Of a stretch of 27,465 nucleotides of DNA, positions 1,373 to 14,778 are shown one piece after another; within the stretch, counting starts at the first letter, position 1; every line of letters begins with the position of its first letter. The stretch spans positions 1 through 27,465 of IMG/VR virus record IMGVR_UViG_3300030419_003407. The stretch is one strand, 5' to 3'. The position numbers and the translations under genes were made by a program. The notes under the pieces are model-generated. The model saw only the letters and a program-made list of their open reading frames with translations, had not been told where the DNA came from and ran no database searches. This DNA is from a virus.

Positions 1373-2242
1373 ATGAAAGACATTCAGGTTTTTGTAATTA
1401 AAGACTCGACAAGTGTTGAGCAATTCCCGCAACACGAAGGATATTCTCCAGTTCTAACCGGACTAGAGAGGCAGGTAAAAACTATCGGCCTAGACTGCGA
1501 CATTCAGTTAGTGAATTCTAATGAGCTACCGACAAAGAGCGACTCTAGGATTACTTCGATATTCAAGCAGAACTGTCTGGTGCACAACAACTATCTACTT
1601 TCTTTGGTTTCTATAAATAACATATACCCAGAGTCAGCGATTATGTGTGGTTACATTGGAACACTCTTCTCCTCCTTCAACAAAGATTTTTTCGCTGGTA
1701 AGTTGGCATCCTCTTTTAACTCATATAAGTTACATTCTTTAGAAAATACTTTGCTATATGACTTAGCTTCCGAGCCTCACAATCTCCCGCCCGCCTACAA
1801 CATATCAATGAATTCTAGGCTATACAACAGTCTTGGGGGATACGCTTTTACACAAACACCAAAGGGCGAGATTTTAGACAACAGAAAGTTTATTCTTTCA
1901 CTTTCAAAAAAAGGTTCGGTACTTTACTCTAATATGTTATCAACCATAAACATATTTTCTGCAAATGACATTTCTACGTCTAACATATGCAAATACTTTT
2001 ATGAACTTGGATTTACCGCTGCGTCCACAATAAAGGAGACTGAAAAGCCTCACTTTGAAAGATTTTGGAAGCAGTTTGTTGAAAGTCCAGAATGTTTAGA
2101 CCATAGAGTTCTTGGTAATCTAACATTTGACCAAACAATACCAGAGGGAGAAAAGAAAGAATACGCTGAGAAGCTGGCTATGGTTAGATGTTCTTATCAA
2201 GCTGGTTTGTTTGAGGGTCTTTCGGGCGTGAAAGTATTATGA
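1373..2242 (+). CDS. Unknown protein, first gene of the glycosyltransferase/radical SAM cassette
   Basis: I do not recognise this 289-residue protein. It has no signal peptide, membrane span or cysteine cluster. It is mixed alpha/beta in character, with Asn/Ser-rich central segments and a charged C-terminal third. ATG 1373 is preferred over GTG 1367, because GAGG at 1364-1367 is then properly spaced. Its stop overlaps the next start as ATGA (2239-2242), which implies translational coupling to the glycosyltransferase. By position it may be a transferase partner, an acceptor-recognition protein or an unrecognised glycosyltransferase; none of these is shown by a motif. Confidence 0.75.
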   Translation: MKDIQVFVIKDSTSVEQFPQHEGYSPVLTGLERQVKTIGLDCDIQLVNSNELPTKSDSRITSIFKQNCLVHNNYLLSLVSINNIYPESAIMCGYIGTLFSSFNKDFFAGKLASSFNSYKLHSLENTLLYDLASEPHNLPPAYNISMNSRLYNSLGGYAFTQTPKGEILDNRKFILSLSKKGSVLYSNMLSTINIFSANDISTSNICKYFYELGFTAASTIKETEKPHFERFWKQFVESPECLDHRVLGNLTFDQTIPEGEKKEYAEKLAMVRCSYQAGLFEGLSGVKVL

Positions 2243-3210
2243 TCTCTCTGGATTTATCAAAATGTTATGGATTTGAAAAACATAGGAGTGGATGGGGATA
2301 TTGCATAAATTCCCTAAAGCCTTACCACTCAAAATCAGGTATATTTTTTGATGGCTTTCTAGAGCATAACTTCAGCTGGCATATAAGAAAATATATATAT
2401 GAAGGTTTTGATGGTATACCTTATACATTTCCGTGGGTTGGTGTAATCCACAATCCACCTAATCCACCAGATTGGTATGATGTTTATAATTCACCAAAAG
2501 CAATGTTTGATAGAGACGTTTTTCAGTATTCCTTGAGGTTCTGCAAGGCTATAATATGCCTATCAGATTATTTGGCTAACTGGGTAAGAGGTGTCTGTGA
2601 CACTCCAGTAATATCCGTTAAACATCCAACGCAAACAAACTGTAAGAAATGGGAGCCTATAAGATTTATTAAGTCTGAAAGACCAAAAATATTGCAGGTT
2701 GGCTACTGGCTTAGGAGACCAGAATCAATATGTTCCTTAAAGTCACCCTACCCTTACTCAAAAAAATGGCTACCAAGTGAGAATGAATATTCTCTACAGA
2801 TGCTTAACGTATACAATAAAACTGATACAAGATTTTTCGATGACCGACATAAGTGGGCCGGTGTAGAAATATTAGACTGGCTTCCTCATGAAGAATATGA
2901 CGACATACTGACATCTGGAATTGTATTTTTAGACCTTTACGATAGCTCAGCAAACAACGCTATCATTGAGTGTATAGCTAGAAACACACCGCTGCTTGTA
3001 AACAAACATCCTGCGGTTGTGGAATATTGTGGAGAAGATTACCCGCTATACTTTGATAACTTAGATCACGCATCTGACATACTGCATGACAGAGAACTTA
3101 TCATTAGCGCACATGAGTATTTCAAAAACATGGATAAGTCTTGGTTAAACGGTGGATACTTCGCCAATGATGTAGTAGCTAAGCTGGGAGAAGTAACAAA
3201 TGGAAGATAA
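2239..3210 (+). CDS. Glycosyltransferase-like protein (GT-B fold, GT4-like C-terminal half)
   Basis: This 323-residue protein has features of GT-B glycosyltransferases. An N-terminal acceptor half has IHNPP at 70-74 and an LSDYLANW-type segment (108-115), which resembles the usual 'cell/stop searching' helix. A linker strand, LQVGYWLRR (152-160), follows, and the donor-binding half has SSANNAIIEC (236-245) followed by NTPLLVNKHPAVVEY, the usual place of the nucleotide-sugar contacts with Glu244. It is shorter than typical GT4 enzymes and weakly conserved. The start overlaps the upstream stop by 4 bp, and the end overlaps the next gene by 11 bp. Expected role: transfer of a sugar in the cytoplasm; donor and acceptor are unknown. 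Confidence 0.7.
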   Translation: MISLDLSKCYGFEKHRSGWGYCINSLKPYHSKSGIFFDGFLEHNFSWHIRKYIYEGFDGIPYTFPWVGVIHNPPNPPDWYDVYNSPKAMFDRDVFQYSLRFCKAIICLSDYLANWVRGVCDTPVISVKHPTQTNCKKWEPIRFIKSERPKILQVGYWLRRPESICSLKSPYPYSKKWLPSENEYSLQMLNVYNKTDTRFFDDRHKWAGVEILDWLPHEEYDDILTSGIVFLDLYDSSANNAIIECIARNTPLLVNKHPAVVEYCGEDYPLYFDNLDHASDILHDRELIISAHEYFKNMDKSWLNGGYFANDVVAKLGEVTNGR

Positions 3211-4576
3211 AAAATATTATTGCACTAGACCCTTTGAGTGGTTTGCCGTCCTCGACAATGGAGATGTTTCTCCGTGCTGCCCGCCTTGGATTGATGGTTA
3301 TCGCATAGGAAATCTTTATGAACAGTCCGTAGATGAAGTATGGAACGGCGAAAAAGCTCAGGACTTCAGGCGCTCAATATTAGATGGGTCTTTTGAATAC
3401 TGCAACAGTCTCTCATGTCCATTTCTACAGTCCAAGACAGATTCCGTTTTGACCCTGCATCAAATTGAAGACATCAACCCCTTAGTCCATGACGACATAA
3501 AGAATGAGAAAACAAAACTAGAACATGGCCCAAGAGTAATCAGCTGCGAATACGACAGATCGTGCAACTTGGCTTGCCCGTCATGCAGAAGAGATTTAAT
3601 AATGGTCTTCGGAGAAAAGCGAAATAAAATTCTTGAACTTCAGGACAAGATCATATCAGAAGCTCTGCCTAGCGCCAGACACTTAACTGTAACAGGGTCA
3701 GGAGATGCCTTTGCTAGTCCGATATTTAGAAAGCTACTCCAGCGACTATCTAAAGAAAACGCGCCAAACCTAAGTGAGATTCTCATCTTAACCAACGGCT
3801 TACTTATTAAAAAATATTGGGAAACACTCAGTGAGTTCTCTAGGGAAAACATAAACTCTATTTCAATATCTATTGACGCAGCGACAGAAGAAACGTATGT
3901 TGTCAACAGAAAAGGTGGCAAGTGGAGTCAGCTACTAGAAAACTTGGAGTTCGTTCAAAAACTAAAACAATCCGACCAAATAGATGGCTTTGCTATGAGT
4001 ATGGTCGTACAAGAGAATAACTTTATGGAGATTAAAGATTTTGTTCTTCTTGCAGAGAAATACGGCGCGGGTTTAGTTCAGCTCCAAATCATAGAGCCAG
4101 ACTTTATAAGAGACTTAGGTTTTTTGGATTATTTTACAGAGTGGGAAAAGAAGGCCATACAGGAAAAAACACATCCCCTACATCAAAAGTTCTTAGCAGT
4201 GCTAAAAGACCCTTTCTTTGACGATTACATTAATAAATTTTCAGATCATATGAGATTGTCTAAAGGGCAAAGAGAACAAGATGCTTTATGTATGAACATT
4301 GGCCCCCTATACGACCTAAGAGAAGGCCGGGATATTTCTCAAAGAGATGAGGTCTTGAAGGAAGCAAACATAATTCAGGAAAACTCTGATAAAAAAGATG
4401 TTTTTTTTGACGGTAATGTATACTATGTAAACAATGATGATGTTATTTCCATAGACTATACAGATTTCGTCGTTCTCGATACGAAGCTGGTAGTTTTCTG
4501 GAACGGATCTTCTTGGCAAGAGTGCAAAGACAAAGAAAAGCTGAGGCTCATGGGGATGACAGATGAACAAACCTAG
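3200..4576 (+). CDS. Radical SAM protein with N-terminal SPASM-like domain (458 aa)
   Basis: The radical SAM cluster motif CxxxCxxC is at Cys122, Cys126 and Cys129. It is followed by the expected core elements: a TGSGD turn in place of GGE, ILTNG, and ISIDAATEETY. The N terminus carries a SPASM-like pattern, Cys8-x12-Gly-x4-Cys26 with Cys27, then GNLY...WN and Cys68/Cys73. This suggests one or more extra Fe-S clusters placed before the core, whereas SPASM normally follows it. A unique C-terminal extension of about 90 residues has no recognisable motif. Such enzymes use SAM-derived radicals to modify peptides, sugars or cofactors. Tandem with a paralogue and between glycosyltransferases, it probably belongs to a modification pathway. 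The substrate is unknown. Confidence 0.85.
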   Translation: MEDKKYYCTRPFEWFAVLDNGDVSPCCPPWIDGYRIGNLYEQSVDEVWNGEKAQDFRRSILDGSFEYCNSLSCPFLQSKTDSVLTLHQIEDINPLVHDDIKNEKTKLEHGPRVISCEYDRSCNLACPSCRRDLIMVFGEKRNKILELQDKIISEALPSARHLTVTGSGDAFASPIFRKLLQRLSKENAPNLSEILILTNGLLIKKYWETLSEFSRENINSISISIDAATEETYVVNRKGGKWSQLLENLEFVQKLKQSDQIDGFAMSMVVQENNFMEIKDFVLLAEKYGAGLVQLQIIEPDFIRDLGFLDYFTEWEKKAIQEKTHPLHQKFLAVLKDPFFDDYINKFSDHMRLSKGQREQDALCMNIGPLYDLREGRDISQRDEVLKEANIIQENSDKKDVFFDGNVYYVNNDDVISIDYTDFVVLDTKLVVFWNGSSWQECKDKEKLRLMGMTDEQT

Positions 4577-5705
4577 CAACCTTGACAACATAAATGAAGA
4601 TGTTACCAATTCAGATATTCCTGATTTTGATACAGCTGGATTTTTCTGTTCACAACCCTTCACTAACCTAGAGGTAAATACCAGAGGGGAAGTTAGGACA
4701 TGCTGTGCATATTGGATGAACCAGACTTTAGGAAATATAACATTCGACAAAACAGAAAATGTCCTAAACTCAGACACGGCACAGGACATACGGAAGTCCA
4801 TCCTTGATGGGAGCTTTTCTTACTGTAACAAAAAAACTTGCCCCAGAATACAATCTATACCAAAAGGCGGCGACGGGATACTCCAGAGAATAGAAGACAT
4901 AGAAGACCAACATCTATTAGATATAATAAAAAACAAAAAAACGAAGATTGACTCCATAAAGTATGTCAACTTCTTGTGGGATTTATCCTGCAACTTGAGA
5001 TGCCCAAGTTGTAGAGTTTCCACAATATTGAATACCAAAGGAGAGGCATACGAGAACAGTCTACAAATACAAAATAAAATACTTGACTACACCCTCCCCT
5101 TAGATAGTGACTTAATATTTAACATAACTGGATCGGGAGATCCTTTTGGTTCAAAAGTCTTTCGAGATTTTCTTACAAGTTTTGATGGTAATAAACATCC
5201 CAACGTAGTTATCAACCTGCAAACAAACGGTGTCATGTTTACTGAAAATATGTGGGAAAGAATGAGCTTATGTCACGATAATATAAGTACTGTTCTAATA
5301 TCTATTGATGCCGCAACCGAAGAGACATACAACAAGGTTAGGGTTGGAGGTAAGTGGGACATCCTGATGAAAAACATAGAGATGGTTGACGAACTCAGGA
5401 GATGTGGTGAAATTGATAGGCTTAGGCTCGACTTTGTTGTTCAACGACAAAACTACAGCGAGATGCCGCAGGCCGTAGAGTTTGCACAATCCTTACTTGG
5501 TGTAGACGGAATATATTTTGCGATCCTAACAGACTGGGGAACTTGGAGTAGGGATGAGTATAAGTGGCACGCCATATGGATGCAAGATAATGAAATGCAC
5601 GAAGATTTTATCCGAGTGTTAGATAATGATATTTTTGAAGATAAAAAGGTAGACTTAGGTAATGTCCGCCATTACTATGAGTTATCAAGAGGTAAAAATG
5701 ATTAA
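4563..5705 (+). CDS. Radical SAM protein with N-terminal SPASM-like domain (380 aa), paralogue of the upstream gene
   Basis: The architecture is the same as its neighbour. SPASM-like Cys29-x12-Gly-x4-Cys47 with Cys48, then SILDGSF-YC and Cys88/Cys93, precede the radical SAM cluster at Cys143, Cys147 and Cys150. TGSGDPFGS, LQTNG and ISIDAATEETY confirm the core. It lacks the C-terminal extension of the first copy and has about 25 extra N-terminal residues. The start overlaps the upstream gene by 14 bp, and its end overlaps the GT4 gene by 8 bp. The pair looks like a duplication followed by divergence, so the two may act on successive or different substrates, or as a heteromer. Function beyond radical chemistry is not visible. 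Confidence 0.85.
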   Translation: MNKPSNLDNINEDVTNSDIPDFDTAGFFCSQPFTNLEVNTRGEVRTCCAYWMNQTLGNITFDKTENVLNSDTAQDIRKSILDGSFSYCNKKTCPRIQSIPKGGDGILQRIEDIEDQHLLDIIKNKKTKIDSIKYVNFLWDLSCNLRCPSCRVSTILNTKGEAYENSLQIQNKILDYTLPLDSDLIFNITGSGDPFGSKVFRDFLTSFDGNKHPNVVINLQTNGVMFTENMWERMSLCHDNISTVLISIDAATEETYNKVRVGGKWDILMKNIEMVDELRRCGEIDRLRLDFVVQRQNYSEMPQAVEFAQSLLGVDGIYFAILTDWGTWSRDEYKWHAIWMQDNEMHEDFIRVLDNDIFEDKKVDLGNVRHYYELSRGKND

Positions 5706-6744
5706 CGTAACAGCACCTATAAACACGCTAGGCTATGGAGTAGCCAGCTATAACATTATTAAAAATCTTTACGGTATAGGCGAGCAGGTCAGTTACTTTC
5801 CCATTGGAAATCCTGAGCCCCCAGAAGAACAAGACTTTCTAAAGAGCATGATGTTACAGTTGCCATCTTCACGGGCTCCGTCAGTTAAGATATGGCACCA
5901 GAACGACATCCATCATCATGTCGGCAAGGGTCTTCATGTTGGATTTCCTATATTTGAGCTTGATAGATTTTCACAGCAAGAAATCTGGAGCATGTCCCAC
6001 AATGATAAAATTTTTGTCTGCTCTCATTGGGCAGAATCGGTTGTTAAAAACGCGATGAATATCGAAACAAGCGTTGTTCCTTTGGGTGTTGACACAGAGC
6101 TGTTTCAACCCTACGAGTCTAAGAGGCCAGCAACTATATTTTTTAACTGCGGAAAGTGGGAAATAAGAAAGGGTCATGACGTTCTTGTGGAATGTTTTAA
6201 TTCTGCCTTCAGTCATTCTGATAATGTAGAGTTATGGATGATGTGCGAGAACCCGTTTTACAACGACCAACAACAAAGGGAATGGATTAATCTCTATAAG
6301 CAATCAAAACTAGGAGATAAGATAAGAATTATACCCAGACAGAAGACCCATCAGGATGTGTATAATATAATGAAGCAAACTGATTGCGGGGTATTTCCTG
6401 CTAGGGCTGAGGGTTGGAACTTAGAGCTTTTAGAGATGATGGCCTGTGGGAAGCAAGTAATAGCCACTAACTATTCAGCTCACACTGAGTTTTGCAACTC
6501 ATCCAACTCTATGCTAGTAGATATAAACTCTCTTGAGTTAGCTAATGATGGGGTCTGGTTTAAGGGAAATGGCATGTGGGCATCACTTGATTCAGACGCA
6601 ATAGACCAGATAATTTCCCACATGAGGTCTGTACACGATCAGAAGCAACAGGGTTTTTCACATCAGAATATAGATGGTATACAAACATCCAGAGAGTTTT
6701 CGTGGGAAAACTCTGCAAAAAATTTCGTATGTGGACTAAAATAA
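5698..6744 (+). CDS. GT4-family glycosyltransferase
   Basis: This 348-residue protein has a standard GT-B/GT4 layout. The N-terminal acceptor domain includes VCSHWAESVVKNA and VVPLGVDTELF (residues about 107-137). The donor domain opens with FNCGKWEIRKGHDVL (149-163), the phosphate-binding Arg/Lys-Gly segment. It ends with FPARAEGWNLELLEMMACG (233-251), carrying the EG...E-motif that binds the nucleotide sugar. ATG 5698 is chosen because AAGAGG lies just upstream and the Met aligns with the usual N-terminal strand; the reading from 5662 lies inside the upstream gene. It closes the cassette and is followed within a few bases by a new promoter. Its role is probably retaining sugar transfer to an unknown acceptor. 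Confidence 0.88.
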   Translation: MINVTAPINTLGYGVASYNIIKNLYGIGEQVSYFPIGNPEPPEEQDFLKSMMLQLPSSRAPSVKIWHQNDIHHHVGKGLHVGFPIFELDRFSQQEIWSMSHNDKIFVCSHWAESVVKNAMNIETSVVPLGVDTELFQPYESKRPATIFFNCGKWEIRKGHDVLVECFNSAFSHSDNVELWMMCENPFYNDQQQREWINLYKQSKLGDKIRIIPRQKTHQDVYNIMKQTDCGVFPARAEGWNLELLEMMACGKQVIATNYSAHTEFCNSSNSMLVDINSLELANDGVWFKGNGMWASLDSDAIDQIISHMRSVHDQKQQGFSHQNIDGIQTSREFSWENSAKNFVCGLK

Positions 6745-6746
6745 AT

Positions 6747-6775
6747 TTGCAAATGCATGGCGTACATGCTAGAAT
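6747..6775 (+). promoter_or_regulatory. Sigma70-type promoter TTGCAA-N17-TAGAAT
   Basis: TTGCAA at 6747-6752, an exact 17-base spacer, and TAGAAT at 6770-6775. The only gene that follows before a terminator is the 57-residue membrane protein. The same -35 hexamer and spacing recur at 11006-11034. Confidence 0.7.
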
Positions 6776-6817
6776 ATTTGCAGTGACCAAGAATCTTTTT
6801 ATAATAGGAGAAAGAAA

Positions 6818-6991
6818 ATGGTAGATAAGCTAAAGAGCATGGTGAGATCGAGACGTTTTTGGACTGCCGTAGGTACTGTTGTTACCGTAGCACTTCAAGA
6901 CGTTGTTGGTATTCCACCAGAGACGGCGACCAGTATTGTAGCAGTTGCTGTAGCTTGGATTGTAGGTGATTCTCTTCGTCCAACGGAGTAG
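6818..6991 (+). CDS. Small membrane protein (57 aa), holin-like candidate
   Basis: ATG 6818 follows TAGGAG at 6805-6810. The peptide has a positively charged N terminus (MVDKLKSMVRSRR), a first hydrophobic stretch (about 14-31), a short polar turn with Pro-Pro-Glu, a second hydrophobic stretch (about 38-50), and a charged end (GDSLRPTE). Two short hydrophobic helices with a basic N terminus fit a small phage holin or another membrane-active peptide, but no family-specific motif proves it. It has its own promoter (6747-6775) and its own strong terminator (7018-7050), so it is expressed independently of both neighbours. It is too short for many gene callers. Confidence 0.8.
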   Translation: MVDKLKSMVRSRRFWTAVGTVVTVALQDVVGIPPETATSIVAVAVAWIVGDSLRPTE

Positions 6992-7003
6992 GTATATATA
7001 TAG

Positions 7004-7017
7004 AGAATCATGATTCT
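7004..7017 (+). repeat. 14-bp perfect palindrome
   Basis: AGAATCATGATTCT is identical on both strands. It sits 12 bases after the stop of the 57-residue gene and immediately upstream of the terminator stem. It could be a protein-binding site, or a hairpin that helps protect the RNA 3' end. No second copy was noticed. Confidence 0.5.
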
Positions 7018-7050
7018 GAGTCCAGCACAAGAAGTGCTGGATTCTTTTTT
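7018..7050 (+). terminator. Strong rho-independent terminator
   Basis: GAGTCCAGCAC (7018-7028) pairs with GTGCTGGATTC (7034-7044) over 11 bp with one G-T, loop AAGAA, followed directly by TTTTTT (7045-7050). It ends the mini-unit of the 57-residue membrane protein. Confidence 0.92.
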
Positions 7051-7064
7051 AACTAGGAGATAGA

Positions 7065-7307
7065 ATGAATATTGATTTTATTGTAGCAGCCGAATCACAT
7101 TACAAAGCAAAGATGGATGAAGCCGGCCTTACCATGAGAGTGTACATGAATTCACCTGTAGGTGTAGGAGAGCATCCACAAGTTTTCGAAGAGTTCAGGA
7201 ACGCACTGGAGGATTTCCAAAACGCGAGAGAAGTGTTTAACCTTGTTCAGGAACTTAAGAGTCAGTACCTAAAGTCACAAGAAGCAAAAGAAGAAGATGA
7301 AGATTAA
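7065..7307 (+). CDS. Unknown small acidic protein (80 aa)
   Basis: I do not recognise this protein. It begins with MNIDFIVAAESHYKAKMDEAG. Its C-terminal half is strongly helical and charged (about residues 40-80, ending in a run of Glu and Asp), which suggests a short coiled coil. ATG 7065 has AGGAG at 7055-7059. It starts a new unit just after a terminator, with no clear promoter between, and overlaps the next gene by 11 bp. Confidence 0.75.
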   Translation: MNIDFIVAAESHYKAKMDEAGLTMRVYMNSPVGVGEHPQVFEEFRNALEDFQNAREVFNLVQELKSQYLKSQEAKEEDED

Positions 7308-7683
7308 GTTAACTCTAGCGGCTGTTGCGTTTGACAATAAGTACGATACTTTCAACAAAAACAGAAATAGCGTACTTCTTCACAAAGATTCCCTTCCTAA
7401 TACTTTCCTTCTCTCAGAAGCTAGTATTGATGAGGCACTAGAGAAGCTATGCTCTAAGTATCTTAACTTTCATTTCAAATGGTTAGATATAAACTTAGTT
7501 GATTTTAGAAAATTAGATGACAAGACTTGCGAAGCTATATACTTTACCCAGTTCCCGTACTCGTCAGGATTTAACAGGCTCGGCACTCCGACAAAACTGT
7601 TCGGTTCCGACCTAGAAGAAAAATTAGGAGACTATTATCTTGATACAATCTCAAGACACACCACCAGAAAATTTGTTCTCTGA
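7297..7683 (+). CDS. Unknown protein (128 aa)
   Basis: ATG 7297 lies inside the end of the preceding gene. The N-terminal order (strand LTLAAVAFD, then SVLLHKDSLPNTFLLSEASIDEALEKL, then strand-rich C terminus) faintly resembles the fold order of Nudix proteins. However, the catalytic GX5EX7REUXEEXGU box is absent, so no hydrolase activity should be assumed. There is no signal peptide or membrane span. It overlaps the next gene by 44 bp. Confidence 0.7.
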   Translation: MKIKLTLAAVAFDNKYDTFNKNRNSVLLHKDSLPNTFLLSEASIDEALEKLCSKYLNFHFKWLDINLVDFRKLDDKTCEAIYFTQFPYSSGFNRLGTPTKLFGSDLEEKLGDYYLDTISRHTTRKFVL

Positions 7684-7954
7684 TTCAGCGTACTTTATAT
7701 GCTGGACAGACAAAGAGTCAAAGGATATATTCTTTAAATGCGGATGGGGACAAGAGTTAGAGGATATAGCCAATTTTGCCTTCATGCTTTATAAAATAAA
7801 TAATGGAGAATATGAGGGCAATATACTAGATGTACTAAAACGCCAAACTCAAGACACCAACGACTTGAGCGTTTTCATGGAGTTATACTTAAAATATAAG
7901 AATGATAAAGATTCAGATTTAGTTGTTCCTCCCTCGATGGTACACTTAAAATAA
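7640..7954 (+). CDS. Unknown protein with TTG start (104 aa)
   Basis: I place the start at TTG 7640, because TAGGAG at 7625-7630 is 9 bases upstream. This is the same site used by several ATG genes here, and the next in-frame ATG would remove about 45 residues. It therefore overlaps the upstream gene by 44 bp. The protein is rich in aromatic and acidic residues, with a central helical region (about 40-90). No known motif is seen. Confidence 0.65.
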   Translation: MIQSQDTPPENLFSDSAYFICWTDKESKDIFFKCGWGQELEDIANFAFMLYKINNGEYEGNILDVLKRQTQDTNDLSVFMELYLKYKNDKDSDLVVPPSMVHLK

Positions 7955-7958
7955 TGTG

Positions 7959-7964
7959 TATAAT
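7959..7964 (+). promoter_or_regulatory. Possible -10 element (TATAAT)
   Basis: A perfect TATAAT lies 32 bases before the strong site AAAGGAGG and ATG 7997. No convincing -35 is found at 16-18 bases (GATGGT region), so activity would depend on another contact. It lies just after the stop of the preceding gene, which is where a promoter would be expected. Confidence 0.4.
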
Positions 7965-7996
7965 ATGTAGTAACACCTACCAAAAGGAGGTATTCT

Positions 7997-8644
7997 ATGT
8001 CTGTTAACAAAAAAATAGCTTGGCAAAGCTGGAACGCCGTTGTAGAGGAAATCTACGAAAAGAATACTGAGATAGAAATGCTTGAAGAGCTTTTGCTAGC
8101 TCAAGAGATACAGGAATCTCATGGCGAAATGCCTATAAAATTTATTGATCCAGCACCAAGAGTGATTTACACGCCCTACGGTATGTTTCCAGTTGATTCT
8201 TTCCTGAAGCCTTCAGACAGATGGAATTGCTGGTTGGGTTACACGAATTTTGATATAACCCATACTGTTCAGGATATTTTAGAAGAAACAGAAGGCGTTG
8301 AAGCCATAAAGGTACTAGGAAGATACACTTTTTTTATAGGAGTGGGAAAACTTTTCAATCCTACGGATGTTAGATTAAATATTGAGAACATACTTACCGA
8401 TACTACTCATATAAGTAGCCCTGAAGCTGTCTCCAATGAAATTAGTGACGCAATAGAGTCAATAAAGAGTCAGGTAAGCGCTAAGAGATATTGGTCTATA
8501 TTTGTCTCCTCTGTAGGTGAAATTGATTATATTATGTCTGATGCTCTCGATGAACAGTATCTACATGAGTTAAATAAGTTTGAAGATTTACGTCAAAAAA
8601 TTGGTGGTATTATAATTAGGAGTTCAAATGAACAAAAATATTGA
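7997..8644 (+). CDS. Unknown protein (215 aa)
   Basis: I do not recognise this protein. ATG 7997 has one of the best ribosome binding sites in the window (AAAGGAGG at 7984-7991). The N-terminal 50 residues are a predicted acidic helix, rich in Glu and Leu. The middle contains aromatic-rich segments around the SDRWNCWLGY region, and the C-terminal third is helical again. No signal peptide or membrane span is present. The 3' end overlaps the sigma-like gene by 17 bp, so the two are probably made together; a link to transcription is possible but unproven. Confidence 0.75.
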   Translation: MSVNKKIAWQSWNAVVEEIYEKNTEIEMLEELLLAQEIQESHGEMPIKFIDPAPRVIYTPYGMFPVDSFLKPSDRWNCWLGYTNFDITHTVQDILEETEGVEAIKVLGRYTFFIGVGKLFNPTDVRLNIENILTDTTHISSPEAVSNEISDAIESIKSQVSAKRYWSIFVSSVGEIDYIMSDALDEQYLHELNKFEDLRQKIGGIIIRSSNEQKY

Positions 8645-9074
8645 TGAAGCTGTTAAGAATATTGATTACAAAAGAATTATGGATAAAGTTTGCTCGAAGT
8701 ATAGCAGATATGTTGACGAAGACGACCTGTCTTCAATCAGGCTACACACTTTGTGGCAATGTTTAAATAAATTCGATCCAGAAAGAAAGGTTAAATTCAC
8801 TACTTATCTTTATCAGCAACTCACATTTGCTATAAAGAATCATCTTAAAAAGCAGAGGAGGGAATATACAAATATTCCGTTCTCCGTGCGTCAGCGTCAA
8901 GATGTAGACATTGACATTGCTTTGCTAGATATGCCTAAAGAAATGGCTAAACTAATTGAGCAAAAATATGTTTCTCGAATGACCATGAATGAAATTGGCG
9001 AAGCGAACGGCTATAGCCGTGAAACCGCCAGAAGAAGATTAAAGAAAGCGGTTGAATACTACAAAAGCACCTAA
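8628..9074 (+). CDS. Sigma-factor-like protein (phage sigma, regions 2 and 4)
   Basis: This 148-residue protein has two blocks typical of small sigma70-family factors. The first is a region-2-like segment (about 28-75: YVDEDDLSS, then LWQCLNKFDPERKVKFTTYLYQQ), where core RNA polymerase and the -10 element are normally contacted. The second is a region-4-like helix-turn-helix (about 108-145: LIEQKYVSRMTMNEIGEANG, then SRETARRRLKKA), which reads like a -35 or co-activator contact. In T4-type phages an equivalently small sigma directs late transcription. A late-gene role here is inferred only; I did not find T4-type TATAAATA late promoters in the intergenic spaces. ATG 8628 is preceded by AGGAG. 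Confidence 0.8.
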   Translation: MNKNIDEAVKNIDYKRIMDKVCSKYSRYVDEDDLSSIRLHTLWQCLNKFDPERKVKFTTYLYQQLTFAIKNHLKKQRREYTNIPFSVRQRQDVDIDIALLDMPKEMAKLIEQKYVSRMTMNEIGEANGYSRETARRRLKKAVEYYKST

Positions 9075-9709
9075 TGCGTATAGAACTACTTTGCAATGAA
9101 CCAAAATACCCAGATATACTGGCTTGCATATTTGAGGGCAGCGAGAAAAGAGTCGATCAAATATGTACGCCTTCTGGGATAGTTCCTAGAATTGACGAAT
9201 CTTTCATTCGTGAATACTGCAACTTTTCTGGCATAGTAGATTTTCCATATGGTATTTCTGAAACCCGCATAAGAGTGCATGAAATATTGCTATGCGAAAA
9301 ACGTGGCATAAAAACAATAGACCTTGTAATAAACAGGCATGACCTAGAAAGCTCCAATCTTTTTGCTATAAGGAAGGACTTTAAGACCTGCTATGAAGCC
9401 TGCAAGGTCAATAAAATCCACATAAGGCCGGTAATAGAATATAGATTAGCAGAGACTATGTTCATTGAAGAGTTATGCTTTTCTCTCAGGGAAAATGGAG
9501 CTTCTGAAATAATACTAGGCACAGGCTCTATGGTTGATGATGTGCTAGACAATATTATATCATCGAAGCTAATAGAAGATAAATTAGGTCTTCCCGTCAT
9601 AAGTTGTTCGCCCATCCTATCTAACGACCATTATAATATGTTTTATGAATCAAAAATACATGGAATTAGGGTAAAGTCTTACAAGATACTCGATAATTTT
9701 GTGTATTAG
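9074..9709 (+). CDS. Deoxyribose-phosphate-aldolase-like TIM barrel protein, probably lacking the Schiff-base lysine
   Basis: The 211-residue protein follows the DeoC order: VDFPYG (55-60), then GIKTIDLVINRHDLES (78-93, keeping the family Asp at 83), RPVIEYRL (118-125), then NGASEIILGTGS (141-152). In true aldolases the last segment reads GADFxKTSTG, with the Lys that forms the Schiff base. Here that position is Ile147, and the second barrel lysine is not evident either. The normal reaction (deoxyribose 5-phosphate to acetaldehyde and glyceraldehyde 3-phosphate) is therefore doubtful. A changed reaction or a binding role is more likely. The start overlaps the sigma gene stop by one base (TAATG). 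Alternative: another aldolase-fold family. Confidence 0.65.
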   Translation: MRIELLCNEPKYPDILACIFEGSEKRVDQICTPSGIVPRIDESFIREYCNFSGIVDFPYGISETRIRVHEILLCEKRGIKTIDLVINRHDLESSNLFAIRKDFKTCYEACKVNKIHIRPVIEYRLAETMFIEELCFSLRENGASEIILGTGSMVDDVLDNIISSKLIEDKLGLPVISCSPILSNDHYNMFYESKIHGIRVKSYKILDNFVY

Positions 9710-9778
9710 ATATTAGGAACTGGACTCTTTCGGATAATTGTGGGAACATATTCATTTTTCGTATAGGAGTCATATATC

Positions 9779-10438
9779 ATGGCAGTTCCAAGTGGACATC
9801 ACATCTTTCCTTATGCCAACGTGCAAACTCAGGGTGGTACTATCTTAAACAATAATAGTACCAGTACAGATAGAATCACTAAGGCTTTTGAAATTCTTAC
9901 CGCAGTTGCTGACGCAGCTGACACTAACACTCTCCCTAAGATTACCGCCAGCGGAATCTATAACGTACACAAACCTCTTACGGGCGGAACATTCGCCTAT
10001 TCTGAAGCAGGCAAGTACGTTCTATCTCGTGTTTCTGACACGCTTTCTGGGGCAGCTAATACTAAGCTTCTCTTTATGGGCGCTGGACAGAGAAAAGCTA
10101 TTCCAAGATTCCAAGGCGATTATGGGGCTAAGCTCCTTACTGCTTGGAGACAAAATCAGTTTAGCTGGTTAGGTACTCTTGATAGTGGTGCTAAGATCAC
10201 CAACATGAGAACTCAATGGTTGAATAGCGGTGGTACAGCGGCTGCTTCCCCAGCTACCTTAAATGGTACAAATATGTGGGATCCAACCGCTGGCGCTACA
10301 TCCGCTAATAGCGATAGCGCAGCTAATCCTACCCGTGCCGTACCGGGTGAATTCGTTATGAAAGTTGACTTTGTTACCATCGACATCGGAGCCGGTGCTG
10401 GTGACTTCTTCGACTACAAGCCAATCACTGGTATGTAA
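9779..10438 (+). CDS. Probable virion structural protein (219 aa), highly expressed
   Basis: Composition is typical of a phage structural protein: rich in Ala, Gly, Thr, Ser and Asn, with no cysteine, charged clusters or membrane span. It has long Thr/Asn/Gly loops (about 150-190) and a glycine-rich C-terminal end. Codon choice is visibly more uniform (many GCT, GTT, CTT, ACC) than in neighbouring genes, as expected of an abundant product. It has TAGGAG at 9764-9769 and is followed 7 bases after its stop by a strong terminator. The 69-bp upstream gap (9710-9778) holds only a possible GATAAT (9733-9738) without a good -35. Head-decoration, tail or other capsid roles cannot be separated by eye. 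Confidence 0.65.
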   Translation: MAVPSGHHIFPYANVQTQGGTILNNNSTSTDRITKAFEILTAVADAADTNTLPKITASGIYNVHKPLTGGTFAYSEAGKYVLSRVSDTLSGAANTKLLFMGAGQRKAIPRFQGDYGAKLLTAWRQNQFSWLGTLDSGAKITNMRTQWLNSGGTAAASPATLNGTNMWDPTAGATSANSDSAANPTRAVPGEFVMKVDFVTIDIGAGAGDFFDYKPITGM

Positions 10439-10445
10439 TAATTCC

Positions 10446-10480
10446 GAGGGGGAGTTAACTCTCCCCCTCTTTATTTCTTT
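10446..10480 (+). terminator. Strong GC-rich rho-independent terminator
   Basis: GAGGGGGAG (10446-10454) pairs perfectly with CTCCCCCTC (10461-10469) around loop TTAACT, followed by a T-rich run (10470-10480). It closes the structural gene and separates it from the membrane/coiled-coil gene, which begins 17 bases later. Confidence 0.93.
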
Positions 10481-10497
10481 CACGAGGGGAAAACCCT

Positions 10498-10779
10498 ATG
10501 GACTGGGCATCAATCAACGATATAGCACAACTAATAGGCTTAATAGCACTACCTGCGATAGGCTGGGTTTTTCACACAGTTACAAAGCACGGGAGTAAGT
10601 TAATCATGTTAGAGGAGAAAGTTAACGACTCTATCCAAAGAAGAATGGATTCTTTAGAAAATAAGGTTGATGGATTAGAGGTAAAGATAGATAATAAGAT
10701 AGACAAATTAGAAGATTCGCTTCATCAAACTCAGCTAGACGTTGCTGAGAAGATACTAAAAGCGATCAATAACAAATAG
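10498..10779 (+). CDS. Membrane-anchored coiled-coil protein (93 aa)
   Basis: A hydrophobic segment (about residues 8-27) is followed by a long charged helix (about 35-90) with regular Leu/Val/Ile heptads, for example MLEEKVNDSI and NKVDGLEVKIDNKIDKLEDS. This topology matches small phage lysis-accessory or hemolysin-XhlA-like proteins, but also simple trimeric membrane tethers, so function is open. GAGGGG at 10484-10489 precedes ATG 10498. As it follows a strong terminator with no visible promoter, it must rely on read-through or an unseen start site. Confidence 0.7.
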   Translation: MDWASINDIAQLIGLIALPAIGWVFHTVTKHGSKLIMLEEKVNDSIQRRMDSLENKVDGLEVKIDNKIDKLEDSLHQTQLDVAEKILKAINNK

Positions 10780-10789
10780 GAGTTTTTTT

Positions 10790-10981
10790 ATGGCAAACAA
10801 AGAAGAAGTACTGCAAATGTTGGATGCTATCAATGGCGGCACATATAACCGTCGTGATTTAGCTAGGGTCTTTGAAAGCATGGTTGAAGCACTAGGTTTT
10901 GCACCTGCACCTGCTCCCGCACCAGCCCCTGTAGAGGAGCCGGAGGTTAATGACGATGAGCCAAATTTTTCCAACGACTAA
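10790..10981 (+). CDS. Small unknown protein with Ala-Pro linker and acidic tail (63 aa)
   Basis: The N-terminal half (1-36) looks like a compact helical domain (MANKEEVLQMLDAIN, then RRDLARVFESMVEALGF). It is followed by an Ala-Pro repeat (residues about 38-47) and an acidic tail ending in NFSND. Such a layout suits a small domain tethered by a stiff linker to a partner. The repeat is encoded by varied GCN-CCN codons (about 10902-10931), so it is not a simple DNA slippage tract. AGGAG precedes ATG 10790. No known family is recognised. Confidence 0.7.
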   Translation: MANKEEVLQMLDAINGGTYNRRDLARVFESMVEALGFAPAPAPAPAPVEEPEVNDDEPNFSND

Positions 10982-11005
10982 TGAGACGAAAATAAATCTT
11001 TTGTC

Positions 11006-11034
11006 TTGCAAATCGACACAACGACACGTATAAT
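11006..11034 (+). promoter_or_regulatory. Near-consensus sigma70-type promoter TTGCAA-N17-TATAAT (nrd unit)
   Basis: TTGCAA at 11006-11011, an exact 17-base spacer, and a perfect TATAAT at 11029-11034. The spacer holds a direct repeat of CGACAC (11014-11019 and 11022-11027) that could be an operator. The same hexamer recurs at 11088-11093 within the leader. The -35 and spacing match the promoter at 6747-6775. Confidence 0.8.
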
Positions 11035-11040
11035 AAAAAT

Positions 11041-11177
11041 GTTCGGAGACTAATGAAGCCCAGCTCTTAAAGCAAAAGCAGGCTAAACGACACTTTCTCC
11101 GGCTTGCCGAAAGGCACAGGATTCATCAAGATTTACTTGCTCTGTTACCTGTTTTTTTATAAGTGTCGTTTTTTTTG
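11041..11177 (+). ncRNA. Structured nrd leader RNA or small RNA
   Basis: Starting about 6 bases after the -10, this non-coding stretch contains several complementary pairs: CGGAGA (11044-11049) with TCTCCG (11096-11101); AGCC (11057-11060) with GGCT (11081-11084); TGCC-GAAA-GGCA (11105-11116), a tetraloop hairpin; ACAGG (11116-11120) with CCTGT (11147-11151); and AACGACACTT (11086-11095) with AAGTGTCGTT (11161-11170). The 5' strand of the last pair lies in the loop closed by the first. The RNA can therefore fold as a pseudoknot or switch between two forms, the second ending in a terminator-like T-run just before nrdA. I could not match it to a known riboswitch class. It may be an attenuator, a riboswitch-like leader or a free small RNA. 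Confidence 0.6.
11086..11177 (+). terminator. Terminator-like long stem and T-run before nrdA (attenuator candidate)
   Basis: A 10-bp perfect stem (11086-11095 with 11161-11170) closes a 65-base branched loop and is followed by TTTTTT, so eight T in a row with the end of the stem. The large loop makes it atypical for an ordinary terminator, but the position 27 bases before the nrdA start suits conditional termination. Confidence 0.5.
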
Positions 11178-11202
11178 TACCCCTTTTTACAACAGTGAGA
11201 GC

Positions 11203-13650
11203 ATGAGCCAGAATATAAAAATTAAAAAAAGAAACGGTCGTTTAGAAGAAGTAAATTTAGACAAAGTTAATAAATGTGTAGAGAGGGCATGCGAAGGATT
11301 AGAAGACGTTTCAGTTAGTGAAGTAGTTCTAGACGCAAGTCTTCAGTTATATAACAAAATTCCGACAGCTGAAATTAACAAGGCGCTCATTCTTTCCGCT
11401 AGATCAAAGATTGAAAAAGAACCGAACTATGCCTATGTTGCTGCGCGCATGCTGTTAAGCAATCTTTATAAGGAAGTCTTTGGCGAATCAGTAGATGTAG
11501 ACAGTTTTGAAGATCAGTATAAGAAATCTTTTATACGCAACACCAAAAAGCTAGTCAAGGAAGAACGTCTTAGCGAAAGACTTTTATCTTACGATCTTGA
11601 TGTTATAGCCGAAGCTATCAACCCTGCGCGCGACCATTTATTCAAATACCTCGGTATCCAGACACTTTATGATAGATATTTCATACACTTAGAGGGTCGC
11701 AGGATGGAAACACCTCAAGCCTTCTACATGAGGGTAGCTATGGGTCTGTGTCTATCAGAAGAGAATAAAGAGCAGAAGGCAATAGAAATATATAACATGA
11801 TGTCTGAGTTCAGATATTCACCCTCAACTCCCACTCTATTCAATAGCGGCACACGCAGATCACAGCTCTCGTCTTGCTACTTGAGTACTGTTGGTGATTC
11901 TATCGACGGTATATTTGGTACTCTTCATGGTCAGGCAAGGCTTTCTAAATATGCTGGTGGTCTTGGTGTGGACTGGTCTGCGGTCAGAGCTACGGGCGGT
12001 TACATCAAGGGAACCAACGGCAACTCTACTGGTTTAGTGCCTTGGCTTAAAATATTCAATGATTTGCTCGTAGCTGTCAATCAGGGTGGCAAGCGCAAAG
12101 GCGCTGGATGCGCATACATAGAACCTTGGCACTTGGATATAGAAGACTTCTTGGAGTTAAGAAAAAACACCGGAGATGATCGCAGGAGATGTCACGACAT
12201 GAACACAGCCCTCTGGATTCCAGATGAATTCATGTTGGCTGTAAAGAAGAATCAAAATTGGTATCTTTTTGATCCCTCTGAATGTAGAGAGCTGCATGAT
12301 ACCTACGGTAAAGAGTTTAGCAAGTATTATAAAAAGTATAAGAAGTTAGCCGATGCTGGGGAACTAAAGAATCACAGGGTCATAAATGCAAAAGACCTCT
12401 GGAAGAAAATGCTCACAGCCCTATATGAAACGGGTCATCCTTGGATCACATTTAAAGACCCATCCAATATTAGATACTCTAATAAACATGAAGGTGTAGT
12501 TCACTCCTCTAATTTATGTACAGAGATACTGCTACATACATCCCCAACCGAGTACGATGAGGGCAATGTTATTAAAGTTGGAGAGACAGCAGTTTGTAAC
12601 TTAGCTAGCATAAATTTGGCATCACACTTGAAGGTTCGTACAATAGATTGGAAGAAACTACAAAAAACTGTCGAGGTAGCTGTTAGAGGTCTGGATAATG
12701 TAATTAATTTGAACTTTTATCCAACAGAAGAAGCAAAGAAGGCCAACTTAAAACATAGACCTGTTGGCCTCGGTATAATGGGGACACATGATGTATTACA
12801 TAAGCTAGGAATACCCTATAATTCCAAGGATGCAGTTGTTATATGTGGCAAAATTCAAGAGTTCATTTCTATGTATGCAATCAAGACATCTGCGATGTTA
12901 GCTAAGGAAAAGGGCGCATACCCCTCTTTTGAGGGCTCCGAATGGAGCAACGGCAATTTTCCAATAGATACTTACTGCGATTTAATGAACCAGAGAGACC
13001 CTCAAAGGTCAGATAATGTGTATAAGAAAGAGGACTTCGAGAACTCAACCGAAGAGTGGGATGAGGTTAGGGAATTAGTGAGAAGGCACGGCATGCGTAA
13101 TAGCAACGTCATGGCAATCGCTCCTACTGCAACCATCTCGTATATTCAAGGTTGTTCTCAGTCTATTGAGCCAGATTACTCTGTTCTTTATGTGTACTCA
13201 ACACTTAGTGGGGAGTTCACTATGGTCAATGAACACTTTGTTGCAATGGCCAAGAAGAAGGGTATTTGGTGCCAAGAGCTAGTAGATGCTCTAAAAACTG
13301 CCGATGGCGATGTCATGGCGGTTGATCTGGATGAGGATATTCAGAGAGAATTTGTTAGCGCTTTTGATATAGAACCAGAAATTTTGATTGAGGCTGCGGC
13401 TGAAAGACAAAAGTGGATTGATATGGGTCAGTCACTTAACCTTTACAATAAGCATGACAGTCTCAAGTTTTTGAATGATCTTTATTTCAATGCTTGGGAG
13501 AGTGGTCTTAAAACTACTTACTATTTAAGAGGTAAGGCCGCAACTAGAGTAGAGAAATCGACAGTCAGCTTTAAGTCTACTGAAGAGCCAGAAGGCGAAG
13601 AGATCAAAGCATGCTCCGTCCTAGATCCCGGATGTGAGAGTTGTCAATGA
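11203..13650 (+). CDS. nrdA: Class I ribonucleoside-diphosphate reductase, large (alpha) subunit
   Basis: This subunit makes deoxyribonucleotides from ribonucleoside diphosphates for phage DNA synthesis. The 815-residue protein starts with an ATP-cone (about 5-92), the allosteric activity site. The catalytic set is complete: Cys225 in SSCYLS, NLCTE with Asn437, Cys439 (thiyl radical) and Glu441, and Cys465 in VCNLASIN. A Tyr-Tyr pair for radical transfer is present in KTTYYLRG, and the C terminus has the redox pair Cys811/Cys814. ATG 11203 begins the ATP-cone; the open frame back to 11104 runs through the leader T-run and has no homologous character. Its stop overlaps a 45-codon gene (ATGA). 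It partners with the NrdB encoded at 13771. Confidence 0.96.
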   Translation: MSQNIKIKKRNGRLEEVNLDKVNKCVERACEGLEDVSVSEVVLDASLQLYNKIPTAEINKALILSARSKIEKEPNYAYVAARMLLSNLYKEVFGESVDVDSFEDQYKKSFIRNTKKLVKEERLSERLLSYDLDVIAEAINPARDHLFKYLGIQTLYDRYFIHLEGRRMETPQAFYMRVAMGLCLSEENKEQKAIEIYNMMSEFRYSPSTPTLFNSGTRRSQLSSCYLSTVGDSIDGIFGTLHGQARLSKYAGGLGVDWSAVRATGGYIKGTNGNSTGLVPWLKIFNDLLVAVNQGGKRKGAGCAYIEPWHLDIEDFLELRKNTGDDRRRCHDMNTALWIPDEFMLAVKKNQNWYLFDPSECRELHDTYGKEFSKYYKKYKKLADAGELKNHRVINAKDLWKKMLTALYETGHPWITFKDPSNIRYSNKHEGVVHSSNLCTEILLHTSPTEYDEGNVIKVGETAVCNLASINLASHLKVRTIDWKKLQKTVEVAVRGLDNVINLNFYPTEEAKKANLKHRPVGLGIMGTHDVLHKLGIPYNSKDAVVICGKIQEFISMYAIKTSAMLAKEKGAYPSFEGSEWSNGNFPIDTYCDLMNQRDPQRSDNVYKKEDFENSTEEWDEVRELVRRHGMRNSNVMAIAPTATISYIQGCSQSIEPDYSVLYVYSTLSGEFTMVNEHFVAMAKKKGIWCQELVDALKTADGDVMAVDLDEDIQREFVSAFDIEPEILIEAAAERQKWIDMGQSLNLYNKHDSLKFLNDLYFNAWESGLKTTYYLRGKAATRVEKSTVSFKSTEEPEGEEIKACSVLDPGCESCQ

Positions 13651-13784
13651 GATTTATAGAATTTAAACAAAGTGAAACATCCCCTACAAAATATAGGCTA
13701 GAGCTTAATATTAAAGAGGCAGAAGAAGTCAAAGAACTATTGCAACAGATAATTGAAAGATTGAATAATAATGAAGAAAAGTAA
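13647..13784 (+). CDS. Small unknown protein between nrdA and nrdB (45 aa)
   Basis: ATG 13647 overlaps the nrdA stop (ATGA), and the TAA at 13782-13784 lies inside nrdB, so the frame bridges the whole gap between the two subunit genes. The peptide starts with a strand-like MRFIEFKQSE and continues as a charged amphipathic helix (about 21-44: NIKEAEEVKELLQQIIERLN). It may be a small regulator of the reductase, or simply a coupling gene that delivers ribosomes to nrdB, whose own binding site is weak. No family is recognised. Confidence 0.65.
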   Translation: MRFIEFKQSETSPTKYRLELNIKEAEEVKELLQQIIERLNNNEEK

Positions 13785-14778
13785 AGAAATTATATCAGAC
13801 AAAGTGGCTACCGTGAACCAGATATTACCACACACTAATAAATGGGCGTGGGATCTGTTCATTGATGGAGCTGCGAACAACTGGATGCCCACAGAAATTT
13901 CTATGGCTAAGGACATTGAACAGTGGAAGTCGAATACTCTCTCAGAAGATGAGAGGCTCGTCGTAAAAAGATGTCTTGGGTTTTTCGCTGGCTCGGAATC
14001 TCTAGTGGCTAATAACTTATTGCTTAGTGTGTTTAAATTCGTAACAGACCCAGAGTGTCGCCAGTATATATTAAGACAGGCTTATGAGGAAAGCCTACAC
14101 AACCTCACTGTAGTATATATTTGCGATTCACTCAACTTGGATATTGACGAAGTTTATCAAGCATATAATTCAATCCCTAGCATTAAAGCTAAGGATAATT
14201 TCTTGATGAACATAACAACAGACATCAACAGGCCCGACTTTAATATTAACACCCTAGAAGGGAAGAGAGAATTTCTTCGTAATATTATTACTTATTATGT
14301 CATCTGCGAAGGAATCTTCTTCTTCTCTGGGTTTGCCATGCTACTATCATTCAATCGTCAGAATAAACTGCCGGGAATTGGAGAACAAATCCAATATACG
14401 CTGAGAGATGAAAGTTTGCATATTAAGTTTGGCACTACATTAATTAATAGACTTAGGGAAGATAATTCTAAAATCTGGACTAAGGCTATGGAAAAAGAAA
14501 CTATTGAACACATAGAAACCGCAATGGAACTAGAGCTTGCATATGCTAGAGAGGTTTTACCAAACGGCATTTTAGGCTTGAACTCCGATATGTTTATTGA
14601 TTATGTGCAATATATAGCAAATAGAAGATTAAACAACTTAAATCTACCTTCACCATTTGAAGACACTCAAAACCCATTCCCGTGGATGAGTGAGATAATT
14701 GACTTAGAAAAGTGTAAGAACTTTTTTGAGACAAGAGTTACTGAGTATTCAGTTGGCAATTTGGTAGATGATTTTTAA
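13771..14778 (+). CDS. nrdB: Class I ribonucleotide reductase small (beta) subunit, tyrosine-free class Ic-like
   Basis: The beta subunit holds the metal cofactor that starts catalysis in NrdA. The six metal ligands are visible: Glu76, Glu107, His110, Glu180, Glu214 and His217. All are offset by exactly 13 from the ligands of Chlamydia trachomatis R2 (Glu89, Glu120, His123, Glu193, Glu227, His230). As in that Mn/Fe enzyme, the first ligand is Glu instead of Asp. The residue that bears the radical in normal enzymes is Val114 (Phe127 in Chlamydia, Tyr122 in E. coli). The C-terminal tail ENxx-free end VGNLVDDF is the usual contact with NrdA. At 335 residues the length is normal, and the start overlaps the 45-codon gene by 14 bp. 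Confidence 0.95.
   Translation: MKKSKEIISDKVATVNQILPHTNKWAWDLFIDGAANNWMPTEISMAKDIEQWKSNTLSEDERLVVKRCLGFFAGSESLVANNLLLSVFKFVTDPECRQYILRQAYEESLHNLTVVYICDSLNLDIDEVYQAYNSIPSIKAKDNFLMNITTDINRPDFNINTLEGKREFLRNIITYYVICEGIFFFSGFAMLLSFNRQNKLPGIGEQIQYTLRDESLHIKFGTTLINRLREDNSKIWTKAMEKETIEHIETAMELELAYAREVLPNGILGLNSDMFIDYVQYIANRRLNNLNLPSPFEDTQNPFPWMSEIIDLEKCKNFFETRVTEYSVGNLVDDF

Follow-up and report, generated by a model that had tools for sequence, protein, structure and literature searches.

A run of five overlapping genes in a phage genome fragment appears to form a glycan module in which two radical SAM proteins, rSAM1 and rSAM2, act as a pair and tailor a glycan made by the phage itself; we put the probability of this reading at about 0.6. 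Radical SAM genes have repeatedly been reported in phage genomes without a function. The pair described here occupies a defined place within a glycosyltransferase cassette, occurs naturally fused in relatives and is linked to a cellular clade found in glycan clusters; this points to a concrete, testable class of substrate for the radical SAM enzymes of phages and, more generally, for those with an N-terminal twitch domain. If the reading is true, phages use oxygen-sensitive radical chemistry for unusual glycans, with a possible route to a changed host surface or a disguised virion. Phage radical SAM cassettes beside glycosyltransferases (PMC7029224), phages with many radical SAM genes (PMC2853527) and the reversed domain order (NCBIfam) are already known. 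New here are the gene frame conserved in 12 contigs, the radical SAM fusion, the exchangeable slot, the two cellular origins and the extra sugar-nucleotide enzymes in relatives; in the open-licence literature we found no paper on the paired or fused form, the exchangeable slot or the double origin.

Layout of the cassette

The window is the whole stretch of DNA analysed, 27,465 nucleotides (positions 1-27,465 of IMG/VR record IMGVR_UViG_3300030419_003407), which also encodes ribonucleotide reductase, PhoH, a UvsX-like recombinase and a sigma factor. The cassette at 1373-6744 consists of five plus-strand genes that overlap by 4-14 nt in the ORF listing. Its features and those just downstream are:

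1373..2242, plus strand: g1, 289 aa, probable divergent GT-A (GT2-like) transferase; ATG at 1373
2239..3210, plus strand: GTB, 323 aa, probable GT-B glycosyltransferase; 4-nt overlap with g1
3200..4576, plus strand: rSAM1, 458 aa, N-terminal SPASM/twitch domain, radical SAM core and C-terminal extension of ~100 aa; 11-nt overlap with GTB
4563..5705, plus strand: rSAM2, 380 aa, N-terminal SPASM/twitch domain and radical SAM core; 14-nt overlap with rSAM1
5692..6744, plus strand: GT4, 350 aa, GT-B group 1/4 glycosyltransferase; open frame from 5662
6818..6991, plus strand: small ORF, 57 aa, conserved in contig L003, holin-like look by inspection
7018..7044, plus strand: terminator-like hairpin of 11 pairs followed by a T run, from a pattern scan only

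The start of GT4 seems better placed at 5692 than at the mechanical 5662 because homologues share the start MINVTAPIN; the 14-nt overlap with rSAM2 remains. The hairpin is the probable end of the unit. All five cassette genes are under purifying selection: dN/dS between the window and L003, its nearest relative (94%), is 0.04-0.08, close to the 0.03-0.045 of neighbouring phage genes in the same comparison. Together with the ORF listing and the gene order kept in 12 related contigs, these values confirm the single run of five overlapping genes described in the first-pass annotation.

An N-terminal twitch-type domain in both radical SAM proteins

In rSAM1, PF13186 matches residues 8-73 (5e-15) and is followed by PF04055 at 121-282 (3e-11); in rSAM2 the corresponding matches cover residues 29-93 (7e-7) and 143-278 (3e-7). 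A SPASM-like domain therefore stands at the N terminus of both proteins, as had been proposed. The cysteines are arranged as C8-x12-G21-x4-C26C27, C68-x4-C73 and core C122-x3-C126-x2-C129 in rSAM1, and as C29-x12-G42-x4-C47C48, C88-x4-C93 and core C143-x3-C147-x2-C150 in rSAM2, exactly the Cys-x12-Gly-x4-Cys-Cys motif and later Cys pair ahead of a CxxxCxxC core that the annotation had read from the sequence. Of the eight cysteines (five N-terminal and three in the core), seven occur in all 88 phage and cellular relatives and the remaining one in 87, the other sequence having a gap there; near-invariance on this scale argues that the pattern is not due to chance. With five near-invariant cysteines and no CX2CX5CX3C stretch, the N-terminal domain has a truncated SPASM cysteine set of the twitch type.

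Canonical SPASM/twitch radical SAM enzymes carry the auxiliary domain C-terminal to the core (PMC9012708), whereas in rSAM1 and rSAM2 it is N-terminal. The reversed order noted earlier is thus present in both proteins but is not new, since NCBIfam family NF033640 (N_Twi_rSAM) already covers a SPASM/twitch-type domain ahead of the radical SAM core. NF033640 is also the best curated family for both proteins and matches over nearly their full length. As rSAM1 (89.8 bits) and rSAM2 (87.2 bits) score below its cut-off of 170, we regard them as related to the family by architecture and do not file them as members. Five cellular relatives tested scored 63-91 bits, and the fused protein of contig L008 reached 171.6 bits, above the cut-off only with both halves summed. 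The phage proteins further differ from the family in that two copies, with single domains at 87-90 bits versus 170, are paired or fused within a glycosyltransferase cassette.

Another close known system is BtrN, a twitch radical SAM dehydrogenase of an aminocyclitol in butirosin biosynthesis (PMC9012708), which holds a single extra cluster with four cysteine ligands (PMC6231123; PMC9012708). The domain profile aligns with the twitch (auxiliary-cluster) domain of BtrN at 1.8e-5. This alignment and the near-invariance of the cysteines suggest a placement suited to binding an auxiliary cluster, and a twitch-type domain would be expected to bind one. BtrN differs in that its twitch domain is C-terminal, and its core is only weakly similar to those of the phage proteins. 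The AlphaFold model of rSAM2 (pLDDT 77, pTM 0.74) gave Foldseek matches to NifB, DesII, BlsE, viperin, SuiB, CteB, SkfB and TigE.

Probable glycosyltransferase genes frame the pair

The first gene, g1, had been thought to have no known fold and to encode the acceptor or a new transferase. No Pfam or NCBIfam match was obtained for it. Its AlphaFold model is weak (pLDDT 54, pTM 0.56), and all 50 of the best PDB matches of this model are GT-A enzymes, among them TarP, GalNAc-Ts, RmlT and cellulose synthase (best E 1.8e-3, TM ~0.3); many named matches in BFVD are likewise GT-A/GT2-type. Neither an acceptor nor a new fold is supported by these matches, and g1 is probably a divergent GT-A transferase. 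Proof from sequence profiles that it belongs to GT2 was not obtained, the g1 profile matching GT2 weakly. A candidate metal-binding DxD site, at a likely position in an alignment read by eye, is DEN in L030, LEN in L008 and KQN in the window. Across related contigs g1 is 32-93% identical.

GTB matches PF13439 at 0.008 (16.6 bits, below the cut-off of 28.5), and its profile aligns with the GT4 group over the C-terminal half (hhalign, E 1.8e-4). It is a probable GT-B glycosyltransferase, 50-97% identical in the 12 related contigs. The assignments of both g1 and GTB, resting on weak fold or profile matches, are probable. The last gene, GT4, matches PF13692 (5e-15; 56.5 bits, cut-off 27), PF00534 (4e-14; 53 bits, cut-off 26.4) and the glycosyltransferase family PHROG 2170 (1.7e-24).

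An exchangeable slot and a natural fusion

A scan anchored on GTB recovered 12 related contigs, about six lineages by sequence. The order g1-GTB-[slot]-GT4 is kept in all 12, confirming a conserved linkage with a variable slot. In most of them a PAP2 gene precedes the cassette, and small genes, a sigma factor gene and a possible structural gene follow it. The slot contents are:

rSAM1 and rSAM2 as separate genes: window, L003
fused radical SAM protein alone, 841-845 aa: L024, L027
Sulfotransfer_2 and fused radical SAM protein, 812 aa: L007, L008, L009, L023, L028
241-aa P-loop sulfotransferase-like protein, DUF6473 and cytidylyltransferase-like protein (nucleotidyltransferase), with no radical SAM gene: L030-L033

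The 241-aa protein of the last type is a sulfotransferase-like P-loop protein by inspection, without a Pfam match, and no radical SAM gene was found in the two L030-type records searched. Because what lies between GTB and GT4 varies from contig to contig, the slot behaves like a site for exchangeable tailoring enzymes. In 7 of the 12 contigs rSAM1 and rSAM2 are fused into one protein of 812-845 aa, which indicates that the two work together in one process.

Enzymes of sugar-nucleotide metabolism accompany the cassette in relatives. Related phages have an epimerase gene just upstream of it, and an upstream gene in several shows a weak GT11 resemblance. Among the related contigs the largest (L120-L126, 145 kb) has genes for two proteins resembling GDP-mannose 4,6-dehydratase, a further epimerase, part of a DegT aminotransferase, an NTP transferase, a second sulfotransferase and additional glycosyltransferases. 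A large minus-strand glycan gene cluster of this phage, from L123 3159-19998 to L124 2880, adjoins tail genes and contains GDP-mannose dehydratase, epimerase, aminotransferase, sulfotransferase, NTP transferase and several glycosyltransferase genes. The terminase of the 145-kb contig is at most ~27% identical to that of any isolate phage. rSAM1, g1 and GTB had no tblastn match among 50,697 phage records, and rSAM2 matched isolate phages weakly and in the core only. By these comparisons, the phages that bear the cassette are far from any isolate.

The slot also bears on the alternative of a RiPP-like modification of a protein or peptide (a virion protein, for instance) by the pair, with the glycosyltransferases then glycosylating the same protein. 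SuiB, CteB, SkfB and TigE among the fold matches would fit such a role, and SPASM enzymes are often peptide maturases (PMC6231123). However, neither the overlapping cassette nor the 320-bp gap downstream contains a precursor-like gene; the conserved small ORF at 6818..6991 looks membrane-like and is unlike a RiPP precursor in position and composition, and no RRE-type Pfam match was found. A glycan target fits better, because sulfotransferases and a cytidylyltransferase-like protein also occupy this slot, and we consider a peptide target unlikely.

In the window, a complete tmRNA gene (894-1238; Rfam RF00023, 106 bits; ARAGORN tag VEENFALAA) begins within the terminal part of the PAP2 gene. L003 and L004 yielded no tmRNA, and in L003 a recombination endonuclease VII gene (4689-5105) lies at the tmRNA position.

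The two radical SAM proteins descend from different cellular lineages

A genome scan yielded 204 cellular relatives; the best of them shows 43% identity across residues 26-373, N-terminal domain included. In a tree of 54 phage and cellular radical SAM sequences, rSAM1 groups with a Planctomycetota/Nitrospirota/Nitrospinota/Elusimicrobiota/Methanoregula clade (support 100/99) and rSAM2 falls close to a group that is mainly proteobacterial (93/89, not starred). Forcing all phage copies into one clade costs 61 log units and is rejected (AU p 2.3e-7). By this tree, rSAM1 and rSAM2 come from different cellular lineages; the rejection of a single clade indicates that genes of two lineages came together before they were fused, and tandem duplication inside the phage is rejected at the same p value.

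Glycosyltransferases are the commonest neighbours of the cellular sister clade of rSAM1 (32 of 104 match GT2 and 17 match GT1/GT4), and DUF6473 and sulfotransferases also occur there. The glycan clusters of Brocadia, Scalindua and Nitrospinota resemble the phage cassette in placing an N-terminal-SPASM radical SAM protein of this clade among GT2/GT4, DUF6473 and sulfotransferase genes. They differ in being cellular and in usually having a single radical SAM gene, with no rSAM2-type partner at the loci inspected. The cellular relatives of rSAM2 are mostly orphans beside housekeeping genes (carAB, dnaJ, dapB and similar), with no glycosyltransferase among their 25 commonest neighbour families. 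At three cellular loci (L047, L052, L055), in Lysobacterales and a related gammaproteobacterium, an orphan N-terminal-SPASM radical SAM gene adjoins carAB and dnaJ.

This orphan context would suit a pair that makes a small molecule or cofactor, such as a viperin-like nucleotide, a tetrapyrrole or a metallocofactor, with the glycosyltransferase neighbourhood reflecting gene packing only. Viperin and NifB are among the fold matches, and PADLOC returned weak matches to the pVip core. Against this, viperins are not known to have an N-terminal cysteine domain, the rSAM1 clade is glycosyltransferase-associated in cells, and the slot alternates with glycan-type enzymes; a small-molecule product thus seems rather improbable. 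A role in defence was rejected, as the PADLOC matches were weak and confined to the viperin core.

Proposed mechanism and alternative targets

The suggestion of a sugar-modification pathway in a phage finds support in the conserved frame with its glycosyltransferases and slot contents, in the glycosyltransferase-rich context of the rSAM1 sister clade and in the sugar-nucleotide genes of relatives. The BtrN twitch alignment and the sugar enzymes DesII and BlsE among the fold matches point the same way, as do the radical SAM cassettes that pelagimyophages keep among glycosyltransferase genes (PMC7029224). Counted against it are the fold matches to SuiB, CteB and SkfB (peptide), viperin and NifB, the context of the rSAM2 relatives, which has no common glycosyltransferase, and the report that a shared neighbourhood of SPASM/twitch enzymes in sequence space is no guide to function (PMC6231123).

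In the mechanism we propose for glycan tailoring, two to three glycosyltransferases (g1, probably GT-A, with GTB and GT4 of GT-B type) would build a short sugar chain, to be tailored by the slot enzymes, in the window rSAM1 and rSAM2 acting as a pair. Each would use the [4Fe-4S] cluster of its C-x3-C-x2-C motif with SAM to generate a 5'-deoxyadenosyl radical, which may abstract a hydrogen from a sugar carbon of a nucleotide sugar or of the growing glycan. The N-terminal auxiliary cluster could be the partner to or from which an electron passes, as proposed for BtrN, and the outcome on the sugar might be oxidation, epimerisation, deoxygenation or a new bond. The two proteins would act one after the other or at two positions, and we propose this as the reason for their fusion in relatives. 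No flippase or polymerase was recognised within the cassette, so assembly is probably cytoplasmic. The acceptor may be a surface or virion glycan. More tentatively, two N-terminal-twitch modules of different cellular origin might constitute a two-headed enzyme that performs consecutive C-H activations on a phage-built glycan, yielding a sugar structure not known from hosts, with the tailoring step (radical, sulfation or nucleotidyl-activated group) swapped between phages.

Nucleic acid had been listed among the possible targets, and the cassette could instead hypermodify a DNA base by radical and glycosyl steps and so protect the genome of the phage. In other phages a radical SAM gene does adjoin a TET-associated glycosyltransferase (L012, PF20691 1e-28). 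Yet six related records, which are partial, contained no match to PF20691, PF12851 (Tet_JBP) or ThyA-type PF00303, the PF12851 query being without a positive control; this target is not borne out, and we hold it to be quite improbable. In the L011-L021 phage group (for example L012 6101-10593), the radical SAM gene lies between a ParB-like gene (by inspection) and the PF20691 gene, just upstream of apparent terminase genes, which may indicate a radical step in DNA modification there.

The window also carries four DUF1501 (PF07394) genes (15819-17078, 18023-19330, 19761-21044 and 21534-22748), each encoding a protein with a twin-arginine signal, whose RRxFL is invariant in 19 homologues, and lacking a formylglycine motif. 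Five related phage records have 3-4 copies each, and such Tat-exported phosphatase/sulfatase-like proteins look unusual in a phage. The radical SAM proteins might be their maturases, like anaerobic sulfatase maturases, a family to which they show weak NCBIfam matches, and DUF1501 genes occur in all six records tested. The [CS]xPxR formylglycine motif, however, is found in none of the 19 phage DUF1501 proteins, and three DUF1501 genes are retained in G006, an L030-type phage that gave no radical SAM match, making this role very improbable. The DNA-modification, RiPP and sulfatase-maturase readings lack support, and these and a small-molecule product are all less likely than glycan tailoring.

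Comparison with other phage radical SAM loci

Pelagimyophages have radical SAM cassettes in a glycosyltransferase-rich host-recognition region, read by the authors as host surface modification (excerpts of PMC7029224). The present phages likewise combine radical SAM cassettes with glycosyltransferases; those excerpts make no mention of N-terminal-twitch enzymes in paired or fused form. Campylobacter phages CP220 and CPt10 carry an exchangeable module with several radical SAM genes (PMC2853527). They differ in having 11-12 such genes and a glycine amidinotransferase (PMC2853527), and the match to them is weak and confined to the core (E 0.5). Contig L010 has several radical SAM-like genes on both strands within 10 kb (4480-14219), one of the N-terminal-twitch type (NF033640, 70.6 bits). 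In the cultured Vibrio phage K566 (L127 4711-9113), three annotated radical SAM genes lie close together, and a weak match there includes the N-terminal cysteine domain of the query.
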